The position numbers and the translations under genes were made by a program. Shown one piece after another: positions 11,902 through 19,808 of a stretch of 64,000 bases of DNA; within the stretch, counting starts at the first letter, position 1, and every line of letters begins with the position of its first letter. The DNA comes from Oscillospiraceae bacterium. Its GTDB lineage: Bacteria; Bacillota; Clostridia; Oscillospirales; Oscillospiraceae. The DNA is taken from contig SVKQ01000020.1 of the NCBI GenBank assembly GCA_015068325.1, positions 1-64,000 of the forward strand, given 5' to 3'. The notes beneath the pieces are model-generated. The model worked only from the letters and a program-made list of their open reading frames with translations. It searched no databases and was not told the origin of the DNA.

Positions 11902-13965
11902 TTACTCGGCCTCGGCCAGCGCCTTGGCCTCGGCAATGGCCTTCTCCTGAGCCGCAGCGGGGCAATCCTCGTAGCGGACAAAGTTGAAGGTAAAGGTGCC
12001 GCGGGACTGGGTCATGGAACGCAGGTCGATGGCGTAGGAGGTCATCTCGGCCATGGGGACCTCGGCCTCCAGCACGGTCTCGCCGTCGCCGGTGGGGTTC
12101 ATGCCCATCACACGGCCGCGGCGCTTGTTCAGATCGCCCATCACGTCACCCACGAAGTTGTCGGGCACGGTGACCTTCAGCTCACCGATGGGCTCCATCA
12201 GCACGGGCTTGGCCTCGGGCAGCGCGGCCTTGAAGGCCATGTTGGCGGCCAGCTTGAAGGCGATTTCGGAGGAGTCCACCGGGTGATAAGAGCCATCGAT
12301 TAGGGTAGCCTTCAGGAACACCACGGGATAGCCGGCCAGAACACCGCTCAGGCAGCTCTCCCGCAGGCCCTTCTCCACGGCCGGGAAGTAGTTCTTGGGC
12401 ACGGAGCCGCCGAACACGGCCTCTTCAAAGACCATCTCCTCCTGCTCAGCCTGGGGCTCGAAGACGATGACGACGTCGCCGAACTGGCCGCTGCCGCCGG
12501 TCTGCTTCTTGTAGCGGGCGTGCTTTTCCACCTTGCTGCGAATCTTCTCGCGATAGGGGACGCGGGGGGTGGACAGTTCGGTGTCCACGCCGAAGCGGGA
12601 CTTCAGCTTGGCGCACAGCACGTCGATCTGGATGTCACCGGTGCCGGCGATGACCACCTGATGGGTCTCGGCATTATTGGTGACGCGGAATGTGGGATCC
12701 TCCTCGTTCAGCTTGTTGAGGCCGGTACCCAGCTTCTCCACCTCCTGCTTGGTCTTGGGGGCGATGGCACGCTCATAGCAGGGCTGGGGATAGTTCATGC
12801 CCTGGAGCTTGACGATGTTCTTGGCATCGCACAGGGTATCACCGGTCCTAACCTTGTCCATCTTACCGATGGCACCGATATCGCCGCAGCAGATCTCCTT
12901 GGTCTCCTCGCTCTTCTTGCCCTTCATGAAGTACAGACGGCCCAGTTTCTCGGTGTTGCCGGTGGTGGTGTTGTACAGAGCCATGTCGCTGGTGACCTTG
13001 CCGCGGATCACCTTGATCATGGAGTACTTGCCGTACTGGTCGGAAATGGTCTTGAACACGATGGCGGCGGTGGGGCCGTTGGGATCCACAGCCACTTCCA
13101 CAGCGTTGCCGTCGTCATCCTCGGCGGTCTCGGCGGCCATATCGGTGGCCACGGGCACCAGATCCAGGATGGTCTGCATCAGCAGCTCCACACCCAGGCC
13201 GGTGGCGGCGCTGCCGCACAGCACCGGGCAGATACTGCCGTCCCGCACGCCGATCTTCAGGCCCTTGGCGATGTCCTCGGCGGACAGCTCCATGGTGTCG
13301 AAGAACTTCTCCATCAGCTCCTCATCGGCGCCGGCGGCGTTCTCCATCAGCTCGGCCCGCAGGCTCTCCACCTCGTCGGCCACGGAGGCGGGCACGGCGC
13401 ACTCGACGACCTTGCCGCCTTTGACCTCATAGGCCTTGCCGCGCAGCAGATCCACGATGGCGGTGACTGCCTTGTTGCCGTCGATCACCGGGGCCACAAT
13501 GGGGGTGATGGTCTGTCCGAACTTGCCCTTCAGGGCTTCCAGGCAGGCGGCGTAGTCGGAGTTGGCCTCCTCGGTGCGGTTGATGAAGATCATGCGGGGC
13601 TTGCTGCCCAGCATCTTCCAGCTGCGCTCAATGCCCACGGACAGGCCGTCCTTGGCGGCGCCCACCAACACGGCGCACTCGGCGGCGCGGATGGCGGACA
13701 TGGCCTCGCCGGAGAAATCGAAGTTGCCGGGGGCGTCCATCGCGTTGATCTTCACGCCCTTGTAATTCACGGGGGCGAAGGCCAGCGAGATGGAGATCTG
13801 GCGCTTGATCTCCTCCGCGTCGTAGTCGCAGGTGGTGTTGCCGTCGGCGGTACGGCCCAGGCGGTCGGTCCCCTTGGTCAGATAGAGCATCTGCTCGACC
13901 AAGGATGTCTTGCCGGAGCCGCCGTGACCCAGCAGGGCGATATTGCGAATGTCATTGGCAGTCAT
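11902..13965 (-). CDS. Elongation factor G paralogue with altered GTPase motifs
   Basis: This 687-residue protein has the full EF-G length and domain order: GTPase domain about 1-280, domain II, and domains III-V to the end. G1 is intact (GHGGSGKT, 13-20), G3 is DAPG instead of DTPG, and G4 reads NRTE instead of NKxD. The G2 threonine region (RQISISLAFAPV) also differs from translational EF-G. These changes place it with EF-G-like paralogues rather than the main translocase. No rpsL, rpsG or tuf is adjacent, again against the housekeeping copy. A role in ribosome recycling or stress is inference. It is monocistronic with a strong promoter at 14030-14058. Confidence 0.85.
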   Translation of the reverse strand: MTANDIRNIALLGHGGSGKTSLVEQMLYLTKGTDRLGRTADGNTTCDYDAEEIKRQISISLAFAPVNYKGVKINAMDAPGNFDFSGEAMSAIRAAECAVLVGAAKDGLSVGIERSWKMLGSKPRMIFINRTEEANSDYAACLEALKGKFGQTITPIVAPVIDGNKAVTAIVDLLRGKAYEVKGGKVVECAVPASVADEVESLRAELMENAAGADEELMEKFFDTMELSAEDIAKGLKIGVRDGSICPVLCGSAATGLGVELLMQTILDLVPVATDMAAETAEDDDGNAVEVAVDPNGPTAAIVFKTISDQYGKYSMIKVIRGKVTSDMALYNTTTGNTEKLGRLYFMKGKKSEETKEICCGDIGAIGKMDKVRTGDTLCDAKNIVKLQGMNYPQPCYERAIAPKTKQEVEKLGTGLNKLNEEDPTFRVTNNAETHQVVIAGTGDIQIDVLCAKLKSRFGVDTELSTPRVPYREKIRSKVEKHARYKKQTGGSGQFGDVVIVFEPQAEQEEMVFEEAVFGGSVPKNYFPAVEKGLRESCLSGVLAGYPVVFLKATLIDGSYHPVDSSEIAFKLAANMAFKAALPEAKPVLMEPIGELKVTVPDNFVGDVMGDLNKRRGRVMGMNPTGDGETVLEAEVPMAEMTSYAIDLRSMTQSRGTFTFNFVRYEDCPAAAQEKAIAEAKALAEAE

Positions 13966-14115: not shown

Positions 14116-14148
14116 AAGAGGACCGCGGGCACTTGCCGCGGTCCTCTT
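14116..14148 (-). terminator. Hairpin after the P-type-ATPase-like gene
   Basis: An inverted repeat with arms aagaggaccgcgg and its complement lies directly downstream of the stop at 14154. In the minus direction only a short T-run follows, so termination may be partial. Confidence 0.7.
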
Positions 14149-14153
14149 CTGTC

Positions 14154-16628
14154 TCAATAGTGCTTCACAAAGCCGCTCAAAAGCCAGGCGGGCAACAGCC
14201 ACAGTGCCTGGAACACCAGCATCCGCAGGGGGTCCAGCAGGCTGAAGGCACCCACACCGGTGAAGTAGTAGCTCAGCAGCAGGCCGCACAGGCCGCCCAG
14301 ATACGCCAGCGCTGTGGCGCTCCGCACGGCGCGCACCATGCGGCGGCTGCCCACCGCCGTCTCTGCAAAGGGCATGAGTCCCTCCCGGTAGATGACGGCG
14401 CCGGAGCGCTCCGCCGTCTCCCGGCTCAGGTCCGACAGGGCCAGCCGGGTGGACACGTCCGGGTATACCGGCTTCACGTCCAGATTGAAGCGGCGGCGCA
14501 GCAGGCCCGGCGTGATGTTGCAGCTGCGTACCGCAAGCACCGGTTCGATTCGGTTGCGGCGCATGGCCCGCAGCGCCCACTCCACGTTGCGGGAGGGCTG
14601 GTACTTGATGGCGAAGATGGCGATCAGCGCGCCATCCACCGCCAGGAAGACGCCGGTCTTCAGCTTCAGCTCCTGGGGCAGCGTCACGTGGGTCTTGCGC
14701 ATGAAGTAGGCGCTGCCCATGGTCACGCTCTCACCGTGGATGGTACCGCCAACGCCGCCCTCCTCGTAATAGTGCAGATCCTCCACCGCCATATGGACGC
14801 CGCCTTCGGCGGTCAGCAGCTGTTCGAACAGCGGCTGCAGCTGACTGTGGCAGGCCTGGGTCATGCTGGCGGCATAGGACACCACCTTGCCGATCTCCTC
14901 GCCGTAGACCTTCAGGCCGTTGAGGCCCACCGTCCCGGGTGGGAACAGATCGTCATCCGTCACTACCATGCGGCGGGAGCGGCTCACCGCCCGCGCCCCC
15001 TGATAACCGGCCACGGCGCTGCCGCTCTTGACCAGACGCTGGTTCAGATATTTCAACGGCAGCGTGCCCGTCAGCGGCAGAGCCAGGGGCAGTCCGGCCA
15101 CCAGCAGCACAGACCAGACCCACAACAGGTGCGCCCCGCCCTCCCGGGAGAGGGTCACCACGCCAGCCAGTACCGTGGCCGCCGCCAGATACAGCGGCAC
15201 CAGGATTGACTGCCACTTGCGGGCGGGGTCCTCCCGCCCGGAGATCTGATAAAACCCCTTCAGCGTACCCTGTTGCTTGCAGGCCCCGGCGGCGGTGAGG
15301 GACACGGCGTAGGGCGGCACGCCGCCGATGTCTGCCAGGCGGAAGGCCTCGCGCCGGGCATCAGACCGCAACAGCAACCCCAACTGGCACAGCCAGATCA
15401 GCGCAGCGGCCGGGGCGGCAAAGGGGGTCTGTCCCCCGGTGCGGCCCGACACGCCGTACACGCAGTCGGCCAGCACCACCAGCGTGGTGAGGCAGGCTGC
15501 TGCTTCACAGTTTACGCGGCCTCGTTGCAGCCGCTCCAGCATCTCCTTCCAGACAGGCAGCGCCAGCACCGCCGTGACCAGCAGCAGCGCACCCGGCACC
15601 GCATACTGCAGCATCGGCGTCTGCCGCCACAGGCCGTCCAGTGCGCCGGCGGCATCCAGCACCGTCCACAGCGCCAGCACCGCGGCGGGCACCGCCGACA
15701 GCACTGCGTGGCGGTGCAGCCGCTTGCAGCGGCGCTTTTCCTCGCGAGCCGCCTGCTCCATATCCGGCTCCGGCTCCTCCTGGACCCGCTCCGGCTCATA
15801 TGCCGGTTCCTCCCACAGGGCGTCGCCCTCTTCTCTCTTCCTTTGCGCTGTCAGCGCGGCCAGTCTCTCCCGTCCGTCCTCCAACGCCTCTTTGATCCGC
15901 CGACCCAGCGGGGCGGGACGGTCCAGGATGGCGTCGTCCTCGTCCAGCACGGATTCCACCGTCTGGGACATGACCTGCTCCAGCGCCACCTCATGCATCC
16001 CCTCCGGCTCCTCGGGGAACACAGGAAATGGATCCGCCGGCTGCTCCGGCTCATCCGCCCCGCCGCGGCCACCCTGCACCACCTGCAGTGCGGGCCGTTC
16101 CCAGCCGGCGGGCAGCTCCGGCTCACGCTCCGGCGCAGGGGCCTTCTCCGCCCTGGGCGGCTCCGGCTCTCGGCGTGCAGACTGTTCCTCGCGGACCGGC
16201 TCTTCCCTCTTCCGGATGGCCGGTTTCTCCCGGGGCGTCAGCTTGATCTCCGCGCGCTTCTCCGGTCCCATGACCTTTTCCACGTTGGCGGCTACCGCCC
16301 GGCGCAGCCGCTGGGTGTCCAGCAGCGACGGATCCCCGATCACCGGCGCTTTGGGCTCCGGCTCCGCCGCCGCAGCCGGTTCCGGCTCGCTCTCCGGCTC
16401 CTCCGGGATATGGGCGGACCCTTCCGGCTCCGGGACAGGTTCCGGTTTCTCCGGGGCAGGGACGGGCTCTTCCGGTTCCTCCGGAGCAGGCTCCGCCGCA
16501 CCCTGGCCGAATTCGGCCAGGATGGATTCCAGAGAGTACTCCTCCCCCTCCACAGGCTTCACGCCCCGCAGGAGACGGCCCGTCTCCGTCAGTGTCTGAT
16601 ACAGCTCATCGTCGGTGTAGTTGCTCAT
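14154..16628 (-). CDS. Degenerate P-type-ATPase-like membrane protein with acidic Pro/Glu-rich N-terminus
   Basis: This 824-residue protein starts with a short conserved-looking segment (about 1-40), then about 260 residues rich in Pro, Glu and Arg that look disordered. Helix pairs lie near 306-360 and 372-421. Two more at 472-524 run into GLPLALPL, in place of the CPC or SPC of helix M4. Next comes KSGSAVAGYQGARAVSRSR, laid out as in P-type ATPases, but the DKTGT loop reads DDDLFPPGT (558-566). A later GESVTMGSAYFM resembles the nucleotide domain. The TGDN position reads VRSCN (about 700-704), and two helices end the protein. Fold from pattern only; catalysis looks lost, so a pseudo-enzyme is inferred. 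It lies 16 bases after rlmB. Confidence 0.7.
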   Translation of the reverse strand: MSNYTDDELYQTLTETGRLLRGVKPVEGEEYSLESILAEFGQGAAEPAPEEPEEPVPAPEKPEPVPEPEGSAHIPEEPESEPEPAAAAEPEPKAPVIGDPSLLDTQRLRRAVAANVEKVMGPEKRAEIKLTPREKPAIRKREEPVREEQSARREPEPPRAEKAPAPEREPELPAGWERPALQVVQGGRGGADEPEQPADPFPVFPEEPEGMHEVALEQVMSQTVESVLDEDDAILDRPAPLGRRIKEALEDGRERLAALTAQRKREEGDALWEEPAYEPERVQEEPEPDMEQAAREEKRRCKRLHRHAVLSAVPAAVLALWTVLDAAGALDGLWRQTPMLQYAVPGALLLVTAVLALPVWKEMLERLQRGRVNCEAAACLTTLVVLADCVYGVSGRTGGQTPFAAPAAALIWLCQLGLLLRSDARREAFRLADIGGVPPYAVSLTAAGACKQQGTLKGFYQISGREDPARKWQSILVPLYLAAATVLAGVVTLSREGGAHLLWVWSVLLVAGLPLALPLTGTLPLKYLNQRLVKSGSAVAGYQGARAVSRSRRMVVTDDDLFPPGTVGLNGLKVYGEEIGKVVSYAASMTQACHSQLQPLFEQLLTAEGGVHMAVEDLHYYEEGGVGGTIHGESVTMGSAYFMRKTHVTLPQELKLKTGVFLAVDGALIAIFAIKYQPSRNVEWALRAMRRNRIEPVLAVRSCNITPGLLRRRFNLDVKPVYPDVSTRLALSDLSRETAERSGAVIYREGLMPFAETAVGSRRMVRAVRSATALAYLGGLCGLLLSYYFTGVGAFSLLDPLRMLVFQALWLLPAWLLSGFVKHY

Positions 16629-16644: not shown

Positions 16645-17418
16645 CTATTGCCGCCGGCGCACAGCCTCGTACAGCAGGATGGCCGCCGCCGCGGACGCGT
16701 TCAGGGAGGATATCCTCCCCCGCATGGGGATGCTCACCAGAAAATCGCAGTTTTCCGCCACCAGGCGGCTCATGCCGTCGCCCTCCGAGCCGATAACAAT
16801 GGCCGCCGGTCCCCGCAGATCGGCGTCGTAGAGGGAGGTGGTGCCATCGGCCGCCGTGCCGAATACCCATACGCCCTGCTTCTTCAGCTCCTGCAGCGTG
16901 GCGGAGAGGTTAGCCACCCGGGCCACCGGTACATAGCTGACGGCGCCGGCGCTGGTCTTGGCCACGACAGCGGTCAGCCCGGCGCTGCGGCGCTTTGGGA
17001 TGATGACCCCGTGGGCACCGGCACACTCGGCGGTGCGCAGGATCGCCCCCAGATTGTGGGGGTCGGAAATCTCGTCGCACACCACGATCAGCGGCGGCTC
17101 ACCCTTTTCGGCGGCGGCATCCAGAATGGACTGCACGCTGACATATTCCCGCACTGCCGCCAGTGCGATGACGCCCTGGTGGGCGTGGGTGCGGGACATC
17201 GCGTCCAGTTTGCGCCGGTCCGCCTCCACCACCACGACACCCGCCTCCCGTGCCCGGGAGGCGATGTGGCCCAGGGTCTTGTCGGTGTCGCCCCTAGCCA
17301 GATAGATCTTGTCGATGGCCGTGCCGGTGCGCAGCGCCTCGATGACGGCGTTGCGTCCCTCGATGATGCCGTCCGCATCGGCCTGAAGCGCGGCGCGGCG
17401 ATCACTGTTGTCTCTCAT
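16645..17418 (-). CDS. rlmB: 23S rRNA (guanosine-2'-O)-methyltransferase RlmB, TrmH family
   Basis: This 257-residue SpoU/TrmH-family enzyme methylates the ribose of a guanosine in 23S rRNA. It has an N-terminal substrate-binding domain (GRNAVIEALRTG region) and the knotted SAM domain with the three family motifs: DEISDPHNLGAILRTAE, then IVIGSEGDGMSRL, then IPMRGRISSLNASAAAAI. I start at the ATG at 17418 (MRDNSDRR), nine bases after GGAGGGAG; a TTG two codons upstream is too close to the ribosome site. It is the first gene of an operon with the degenerate P-type-ATPase-like gene and is divergent from ftsH. Confidence 0.92.
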   Translation of the reverse strand: MRDNSDRRAALQADADGIIEGRNAVIEALRTGTAIDKIYLARGDTDKTLGHIASRAREAGVVVVEADRRKLDAMSRTHAHQGVIALAAVREYVSVQSILDAAAEKGEPPLIVVCDEISDPHNLGAILRTAECAGAHGVIIPKRRSAGLTAVVAKTSAGAVSYVPVARVANLSATLQELKKQGVWVFGTAADGTTSLYDADLRGPAAIVIGSEGDGMSRLVAENCDFLVSIPMRGRISSLNASAAAAILLYEAVRRRQ

Positions 17419-17461
17419 GGGCAAATGCTCCCTCCCGGTGGGGAAATCTCATACGGCAATA

Positions 17462-17648: not shown

Positions 17649-19808
17649 ATGGATCCCAACAACAAGGACAACAAGAACGGCAGGCCGAACCGCAGCATGC
17701 GGGGCATCCTGACCCTCATCACCTGGGCTGTCGTCCTGACGGTGATATTCAACTATATCAACGCTTACACCAGGAACGACTCCAACCGCTCCACCAGTTA
17801 CGAGATCAAATACAGCGATTTCGTGCAGATCGTGAAGGAGGACAGCGCCGAAAGCGTGGTGTTCAAGGACGGCACCATCTATCTGACGCCGAAGGACAGC
17901 TATGTCTACACCGATGAGGATGGCAAGACCTACTCCAGCACCGATGACAAGAAGCTGACGCTCTACACCGTAGAGCTCTATAACCCCGACCTGCTGTCCC
18001 TGCTGGAGGAGCATGGCGTGGAGTACACCGCGCCCTATGAGGCGCAGCTGAGCCCCATTCTGGTGTTCATGATCAACTATATCCTGCCCACCGTCATCAT
18101 GGTCGGTCTGTTCATGCTGCTGTTCCGTTTTATCAGCAAAAGCAGCGGCGGCATCGGCGGCATCGGCAACGTGGGCAAGTCCAACGCCAAGGTCTATATG
18201 GAGAAGTCCACCGGCGTCACCTTCCGGGATGTGGCCGGCCAGGACGAGGCCAAGGAGAGTCTGGAGGAGATCATCGACTTCCTCCACAACCCCGGCAAAT
18301 ACACCGCCATCGGCGCCAAGCTGCCCAAGGGCGCACTGCTGGTGGGTTCCCCCGGCACCGGTAAGACACTGCTGGCCAAGGCTGTGGCCGGCGAAGCGGG
18401 CGTTCCCTTCTTCTCCATCTCCGGCTCCGACTTTGTGGAGATGTTCGTGGGTGTGGGCGCCAGCCGCGTGCGCGACCTGTTCAAGGAGGCCGCCAAGGTG
18501 GCTCCCTGCATCATCTTCATCGACGAGATCGACACCATCGGCAAGAGCCGTGACGGCGGCCGCTTCGGCGGCAACGACGAGCGGGAGCAGACGCTGAACC
18601 AGCTGCTGGCGGAACTGGACGGCTTTGACCCCAGCAAGGGTGTCATCGTCCTGGGTGCCACCAACCGCCCCGAGGTGCTGGACAAGGCGTTGCTGCGTCC
18701 CGGCCGCTTCGACCGGCGCATCACCGTGGACCGGCCCAACCTGGCCGGCCGTCTGGCCACGCTGCAGGTACACACCCGCAACATCCATCTGGCTGAGGAC
18801 GTGGACCTGGAGAAGATCGCCCAGGCCACTGCCGGCACCGTGGGTGCCGATCTGGCCAACCTGGTCAACGAGGCCGCCCTACGGGCCGTGCGCCACGGAC
18901 GCCACGCCGTGAATCAGAACGACCTGCTGGCCGCCTTTGAGGTGGTCATCGCCGGCAGTGAGAAAAAGGGCACCGTCATCACCGACGAGGAAAAGCGTAT
19001 CATCGCCTACCACGAGGTGGGCCACGCGCTGGTGGCGGCCCGGCAGAAGAACGCCCAGCCTGTGTCCAAGATCACCATCGTGCCCCACACCCAGGGCGCG
19101 TTGGGCTATACGCTCCACCTGCCGGAGGAGGAGAAGTTCCTCCTGTCCAAAGAGGACATCCTGGCGGAGATCCGCACGCTGCTGGCCGGCCGCTCCAGCG
19201 AGGAGATCGTGTGCAACACCATGACCTCCGGCGCCGCCAACGACATCGAGCGCGCCACCGAGATGGCCCGCAACCTGGTGGCCCGCTTCGGCATGACCGA
19301 AGAGTTCGACATGATGGCCCTGGGCACCATCCAGAACCAGTATCTGGACGGCACCTACTCCATGGTCTGCGCCCAGGAGACGTATGCCGCGGCGGACCGG
19401 GCCACCATCGCCATCATCCGCCAGTGCCACGAGGAGGCCCGCCAGATTCTGCGGGACAACCGGGAGCTGCTGGACCAGATCGCCGCCTATCTGTTGAAGA
19501 AGGAGACCATCACCGGCCAGGAGATGATGGCCATCATCGAGGGCCGGGACCCCGAGACGGTGGATAACTACGGCGCCACGAAAGAGGACGGCGGGCAGAA
19601 GCTGTTCCGTCCCTCTGTGCCCGACGTGATCGAGGCACCGGCCAAGCACATCCACATCACCTCCGAGCCCATTCCCATGCCGGAGCTGCCGGAGGAGCCC
19701 GCCGGGGAGACGCCGGAGACCGCCCCCGCCGGGGAGGAGCCTCCTGCCGGGCAGACGCCCGCCGAGGATAGCCCTAACAACAAACCGGAACAGAAACCGG
19801 AGGCGTAA
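17649..19808 (+). CDS. ftsH: ATP-dependent zinc metalloprotease FtsH
   Basis: This 719-residue membrane protease has two N-terminal membrane helices (about 18-38 and 138-160) flanking an extracytoplasmic domain. The AAA domain has Walker A GSPGTGKT, Walker B IIFIDEID and the second region of homology ending RPGRFDRR. The M41 peptidase follows, with zinc site HEVGH. FtsH forms a hexamer that degrades unfolded or regulatory membrane and cytosolic proteins. The last 60 or so residues form an unusual Pro/Glu/Ala-rich tail. It is monocistronic, with promoter at 17535 and terminator at 19836, and divergent from rlmB. Confidence 0.96.

Follow-up and report, generated by a model that had tools for sequence, protein, structure and literature searches.

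A P-type ATPase-like protein without pump motifs is encoded next to rlmB in the Oscillospirales

A degenerate P-type ATPase gene downstream of rlmB

The window analyzed in this study is a stretch of 64,000 nucleotides from an Oscillospiraceae bacterium (contig SVKQ01000020.1). It contains, directly downstream of rlmB, a gene for a protein that resembles P-type ATPases, the textbook pumps, and that has lost their catalytic and metal-binding motifs (Table 1). A sequence-only reading of this DNA had described the gene as an open reading frame (ORF) in which GLPLALPL in the M4 region is followed by DDDLFPPGT in the place of DKTGT and by VRSCN in the place of TGDN. The ORF and the motifs were located as described, the latter at residues 512-519, 558-566, and 700-704, respectively. 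No internal stop codon interrupts the 824 residues, the ATG start codon is preceded by AGGA, and 16 nt separate it from the stop codon of rlmB. Since 19 relatives from the same genus (47-72% identity) share these motifs or have similar ones, all in intact frames, a frame error was ruled out.

Table 1. Features of the locus, with positions in the window and residue numbers of the window protein
Feature	Residues	Position	Strand	Evidence
Pseudo-P-type ATPase gene	1-824	14154..16628	-	stop-free ORF, 824 amino acids plus stop; order-wide family
Acidic Pro/Glu-rich head	1-285	15774..16628	-	composition; stretches of low pLDDT; dN/dS 0.09-0.53
Short linear motif YSLESILAEFG	31-41	16506..16538	-	conserved; short helix in model
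Four helices corresponding to MA, MB, M1, and M2 of P1B pumps	290-434	15327..15761	-	models; weak first domain in LpCopA profile match
Remnant of actuator domain, beta hairpin without TGE	435-465	15234..15326	-	only strands 440-445 and 448-453; same hairpin in both models
M3 and M4, LPL (513-515) for CPC	468-535	15024..15227	-	pump alignment; model
Strand plus degenerate motif I, TDDDLFPPG for DKTGTLTEG	553-566	14931..14972	-	alignments; column counts; model
Predicted nucleotide-binding-domain fold	567-676	14601..14930	-	2.2 A over 109 residues with CopA N-domain 2voy_J
Degenerate motif II, VRSCNITP for TGDN	694-707	14508..14549	-	pump alignment; column counts
Shortened end of P-domain, GDGxND segment deleted	707-746	14391..14510	-	pump alignment
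M5 and M6	751-822	14163..14378	-	full-length model
rlmB (23S rRNA G2251 2'-O-methyltransferase)		16645..17424	-	TIGR00186, 247.5 bits (cut-off 160); 16 nt upstream
EF-G-like gene		11902..13965	-	above cut-offs of NF009381 and NF009379 ('elongation factor G'), below TIGR00484; own promoter-like site

Motifs for catalysis and metal binding are lost

We aligned 16 family members to 12 intact pumps. All 12 match the family profile, and two are encoded in the genome of the window. In this alignment DKTGT corresponds to T557-D558-D559-D560-L561 and TGDN to V700-R701-S702-C703, and the predicted strand 553-556 stops just ahead of T557. The loss of the catalytic Asp claimed in the sequence-only reading is therefore borne out, and two further losses had escaped it: every one of the 16 members lacks about 33 residues, GDGxND among them, and TGE of the actuator is missing. 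The CPx site, which is CPC in nine of the 12 pumps, aligns with L513-P514-L515. The N-domain His and the GxG motif of P-type ATPases form part of the ATP site; in the profile alignment with LpCopA, this His is replaced by S595 and the first Gly by E623. Thus, none of the marks of a functional P-type ATPase (DKTGT, TGDN together with GDGxND, TGE in the actuator) is present in the window protein.

The motifs were also counted in 107 distinct sequences, the window protein included and some of them incomplete. Not even DKT stands at motif I in any of the 107, the only DKTG (L141) being located in a head, and GDGxND did not occur in any of them. None of the 107 has a Cys-Pro site in M4 (three matches of the Cys-Pro type lie elsewhere), and TGE was found within the M2-M3 loop of two (L033, L137). 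The control pumps L161 and L162 showed all motifs (DKT, GDGxND, Cys-Pro, TGE). In 13 of 38 sequences sampled across the order, the catalytic column is still Asp with the rest of DKTGT altered, e.g., DAKDLFP, and several distant members retain TxD of motif II. This suggests that the motifs were lost stepwise, or several times independently.

Predicted fold and relationship to known pumps

Residues 285-824 modelled alone gave a mean predicted local distance difference test (pLDDT) of 92.3 and a predicted template modelling score of 0.86. The model shows a P-type fold of the P1B class with membrane bundle, P-domain, and N-domain, in line with the P-type-ATPase-like assignment made from the sequence, and its residues 11-540 superpose on residues 74-734 of LpCopA. 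Four predicted helices, including the MA and MB typical of P1B pumps, precede the remnant of the actuator, where a mere hairpin joins M2 to M3. P478 of M3 is invariant in alignment A5.

The best sequence match was to the P1B-type Cu(I) ATPases (CopA, with LpCopA structures 3rfu and 4bbj; ATP7B), with which the modelled protein shares the overall fold and eight membrane helices; its N-domain fold also resembles that of Af CopA. In contrast to these pumps, the window protein lacks DKTGT, TGDN, GDGxND, TGE, and CPC, and its head is long and acidic, without Cys or a CxxC domain. The Zn/Cd ATPases CadA and ZntA belong to the same superfamily and gave weak profile matches (0.0025 and 0.039), weaker than those of the copper type; the motif losses are the same in comparison with them. 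In a tree, the 16 family members were separated from the 12 intact pumps with a support of 100. Long branches and low inner support leave the nearest pump class unresolved in this tree, so that a 'copper type' ancestor rests on the profile scores.

Against TIGR01525 (heavy metal P-type ATPase), the window protein scored 16.6 bits (cut-off 346.25), and 14 of 30 members matched at 0.01, the best with 1.7e-11. Against PF00122 (E1-E2_ATPase) it reached 11.1 bits (E-value 0.28; cut-off 28.1), and none of the 30 members matched any Pfam family at 0.01. Above the NCBIfam cut-offs no conserved pseudo-P-type ATPase family was found for the window protein, and the members gave weak matches only. A match to TIGR01620 (0.0018) covers the last part of the head plus the first helices and was attributed to chance; matches of the single sequence to the Protein Data Bank (E-value 1.9 or worse) were regarded as noise. 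No description of a dead P-type ATPase was found in titles or opening parts of abstracts of the open-access literature, subscription papers lying mostly outside this scope, and the term 'ATPase' does not appear in the main text of PMC10211241. The suggestion that the family had not been described before agrees with these searches.

Conservation and selection

Conserved positions were determined in a named set of 72 rows, consisting of 71 loci and the window protein (fragments L068 and L117 omitted). G536, G541, D560, F562, P563, G625, G638, R701, P707, R728, and R748 are invariant in all 72 rows, N704 is present in 70, and position 558 is always Asp or Glu. Pro of M4 is retained in only 33 rows. 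The 38 order rows gave a graded picture: G638 is kept in 38, G625 in 36, Asp or Glu at position 560 in 33, P563 in 31, and Asp or Glu at position 558 in 30, while P707 is found in 14, R701 and R748 in 12 each, and R728 in 11. The expectation that the degenerate positions are not random in homologs thus held in the window's own family, and did not extend to invariance of R701 and R728 across the order.

In 29 close, partly overlapping pairs, the ratio of nonsynonymous to synonymous substitution rates (dN/dS) ranged from 0.045 to 0.19 in the core and from 0.09 to 0.53 in the head. The family is under purifying selection and retained throughout the order, and is not decaying.

Distribution in the order

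The named relatives belong to Oscillospiraceae and kin (Oscillibacter, Flavonifractor, Pseudoflavonifractor, Intestinimonas, Butyricicoccus), from which we inferred that the order is Oscillospirales. Protein matches were obtained in 24 of 24 genomes of the same genus and in 14 of 15 genomes from other families of the order, the exception (G028) being 55% complete. A profile search at 0.001 covered 247 order genomes with a completeness of at least 90%, 11 of which, including that of the window, had contributed rows to the profile. Matches were found in 246, again including the window's own genome. Because ordinary pumps match the profile too, the best match outside the order reaching 85.4 bits (2.2e-24), the family line was set at E < 1e-25. 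It was passed by 235 of the 247 genomes, as counted by eye from the table; 11 matched more weakly and one (G114) not at all. G029, one of the weakly scoring genomes, nevertheless has a true member with adjoining rlmB (L038). A search of the class comprised 156 genomes, seven of them from within the order; none of the 149 genomes outside it exceeded the line, and among the matches listed they showed at most partial hits to ordinary pumps.

Single in-frame stop codons were seen within otherwise good family matches in G046 and G241 (TGA), G088 (TAG), and G042 (TAA), which represent either errors of assembly or genes broken recently. When viral contigs were scanned, no close relatives turned up, and a viral origin was dismissed.

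Genomic neighborhood

The proximity to rlmB noted in the sequence-only reading recurs nearly everywhere sampled in the order. We read 43 loci, each from a different genome and together covering 23 families, taken from the protein matches and from the better-scoring profile matches among the matches listed. At 42 of them rlmB is located upstream on the same strand, in 41 cases within about 210 nt either way; overlaps are upper bounds because the first possible start codons were used. At L140 the frame is broken, and what remains of it begins 1109 nt from rlmB. The only sampled locus without rlmB (L043, family f2) has an obg-like gene, named from its Pfam domains, directly upstream. Within the named set, rlmB was present at 70 of 73 loci, and the contig ended at the other three. 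A neighbor upstream of rlmB common to more than one family was not found among the 43 loci.

The only recurrent downstream neighbor is an EF-G-like gene, present at 13 of the 43 loci in eight families (grouped by blastp at 1e-8). A second EF-G-like gene with 38% identity is located elsewhere in the genome of the window (G000:C14).

The acidic head and its short motif

Residues 1-285 contain 20.4% Glu and 14.4% Pro and carry a net charge of -35. In the full-length model, pLDDT is below 50 across most of residues 42-99 and 129-209, and short helices are predicted at 6-19, 33-41, 105-127, 216-233, and 241-267. The model thus agrees with the earlier description of an acidic, disordered-looking head and predicts it to be mostly disordered; by analogy to the P1B topology, it presumably lies on the cytosolic side. 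There is no Cys in the head of the window protein and therefore no CxxC metal-binding domain. Within the motif at residues 31-41, I36, L37, and E39 do not vary in the named set (72 of 72 rows).

An exact DNA pattern for [ED]xILAE[FY]G gave one match each in 16 of 25 genomes searched, always within the pseudo-ATPase gene, and 15 of these matches came from the 16 genomes of the genus, the own genome included. A narrower pattern spelling DDILAE[FY] had no match in the own genome. A docking motif common to other proteins was discarded, as the exact pattern found the pseudo-ATPase gene alone; a genome-wide motif system is unlikely in these 25 genomes, with the reservation that looser variants escape such a pattern. 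A contig scan with two peptide patterns matched 349 stretches, of which just 77 encode relatives. Very long frames of up to 1472 amino acids owe their size to longer heads, and a fusion to RlmB was rejected because all seven such loci that were read have a separate rlmB.

Discussion

The family combines homology to P-type ATPases and their predicted fold with the loss of catalytic and metal motifs, order-wide purifying selection, and a conserved place behind rlmB. Since relatives throughout the order keep the same dead version beside the same gene, the family probably has a job different from pumping. We rather favor the view that the protein is a catalytically dead, membrane-anchored scaffold, i.e., a pseudoenzyme, with a disordered tether and co-expressed with RlmB. 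An ancestral P1B-type, copper-pump-like ATPase would have lost its pumping parts and been retained at the membrane, unable to pump or to be phosphorylated. The eight membrane helices together with the P- and N-domains would hold it there on the cytosolic side, and the acidic Pro-rich head could be a flexible tether that binds one partner through the conserved helix SLESILAEFG. A structural or partner-binding role had likewise been proposed in the sequence-only reading. Co-transcription with rlmB is likely and, together with the nearby position of an EF-G-like gene in some families of the order, points tentatively to a partner in ribosome maturation or translation. This is the weakest step, because co-expression alone can account for the adjacency. 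iRhom pseudoproteases are unrelated in fold to P-type ATPases. They offer a functional analogy, as a membrane enzyme fold was kept without catalysis and domains were added (PMC6451368).

Several observations weigh against a scaffold tied to translation. The head motif is weaker outside the window's family, I36 being retained in 24 of the 38 order rows, and in some members little of the head is present (L033, 661 amino acids; L035, 544 amino acids). Twelve of the 247 order genomes fall below the family line or lack a match. An EF-G-like gene could not be found immediately downstream at 30 of the 43 loci, and that of the window has a promoter-like site of its own at 14058-14030 (promoter scan). 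Finally, the adjacency to rlmB may serve expression alone, without a shared function.

Among the other explanations, a passive channel or facilitator that conducts an ion or lipid without ATP would make use of the eight P1B membrane helices kept in the models and of the invariant P478. We consider it unlikely, as CPC has become LPL in the window protein, the Pro of M4 is so often lost in the named set, and no transport gene was seen to recur among the neighbors. HAD phosphatases use a DxD pair, and D558 and D560, given their conservation as acidic residues in both sets, could form such a pair in a membrane phosphatase or a slow phospho-switch. The nucleophile-presenting strand ends at residue 556, so that T557 and not D558 occupies the catalytic place; GDGxND is gone, the motif III Lys of intact pumps is lost in the window protein, and Val stands for the Thr of TGDN, which makes retained phosphoryl chemistry quite improbable. 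Still less credit can be given to the idea that the protein is a subunit that regulates an active P1B pump in the same cell by pairing with it, as dead paralogs regulate live ones. The fold would permit such pairing, and three P1B pumps exceed the TIGR01525 cut-off in the genome of the window. In two of nine genomes (G111 and G147; completeness 94% and 97%), however, the family is present and no P1B pump exceeds the cut-off, which disfavors a link to such a pump; eight of the nine had been chosen for a single match in the profile search. The nearly constant association of the gene with rlmB also speaks against this pairing. The few relatives with one in-frame stop are all that speaks for a neutral relic or for an error of assembly or frame; both are refuted by dN/dS values well below 1 in 29 pairs, the near-universal retention, and the recurrence of the motifs in independent assemblies.

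Pseudoenzymes as such are not new; a conserved order-wide pseudo-P-type ATPase family appears to be absent from Pfam and the open-access literature searched. If the scaffold interpretation is correct, nearly all members of a large group of gut bacteria possess a membrane protein linked to a gene for rRNA modification, and evolution can put the P-type fold to new use without ATP. More speculatively, this could be the first pseudo-P-type ATPase family, in which a dead pump, fixed early in a single order, serves as a platform that ties ribosome maturation (RlmB and the EF-G-like factor) to the membrane through a disordered tether with one docking motif.

Further observations at the locus concern ftsH and the intergenic region. 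In the window, ftsH (17649-19808, plus strand) lies divergently beside rlmB and encodes a long acidic Pro/Glu-rich C-terminal tail. FtsH was dismissed as a partner because, among the order-wide loci, this arrangement occurs only in the window's own family. Second ftsH-like genes are located just downstream of the pseudo-ATPase gene at L086, L100, and L115, and at L041 (family f3) an era-like GTPase gene with a KH domain, named from its Pfam domains, is found directly downstream. Between the pseudo-ATPase stop codon and the EF-G-like gene, a GC-rich perfect 12-bp hairpin was seen by eye at positions 14117-14147, which does not appear in the list of the terminator scan.
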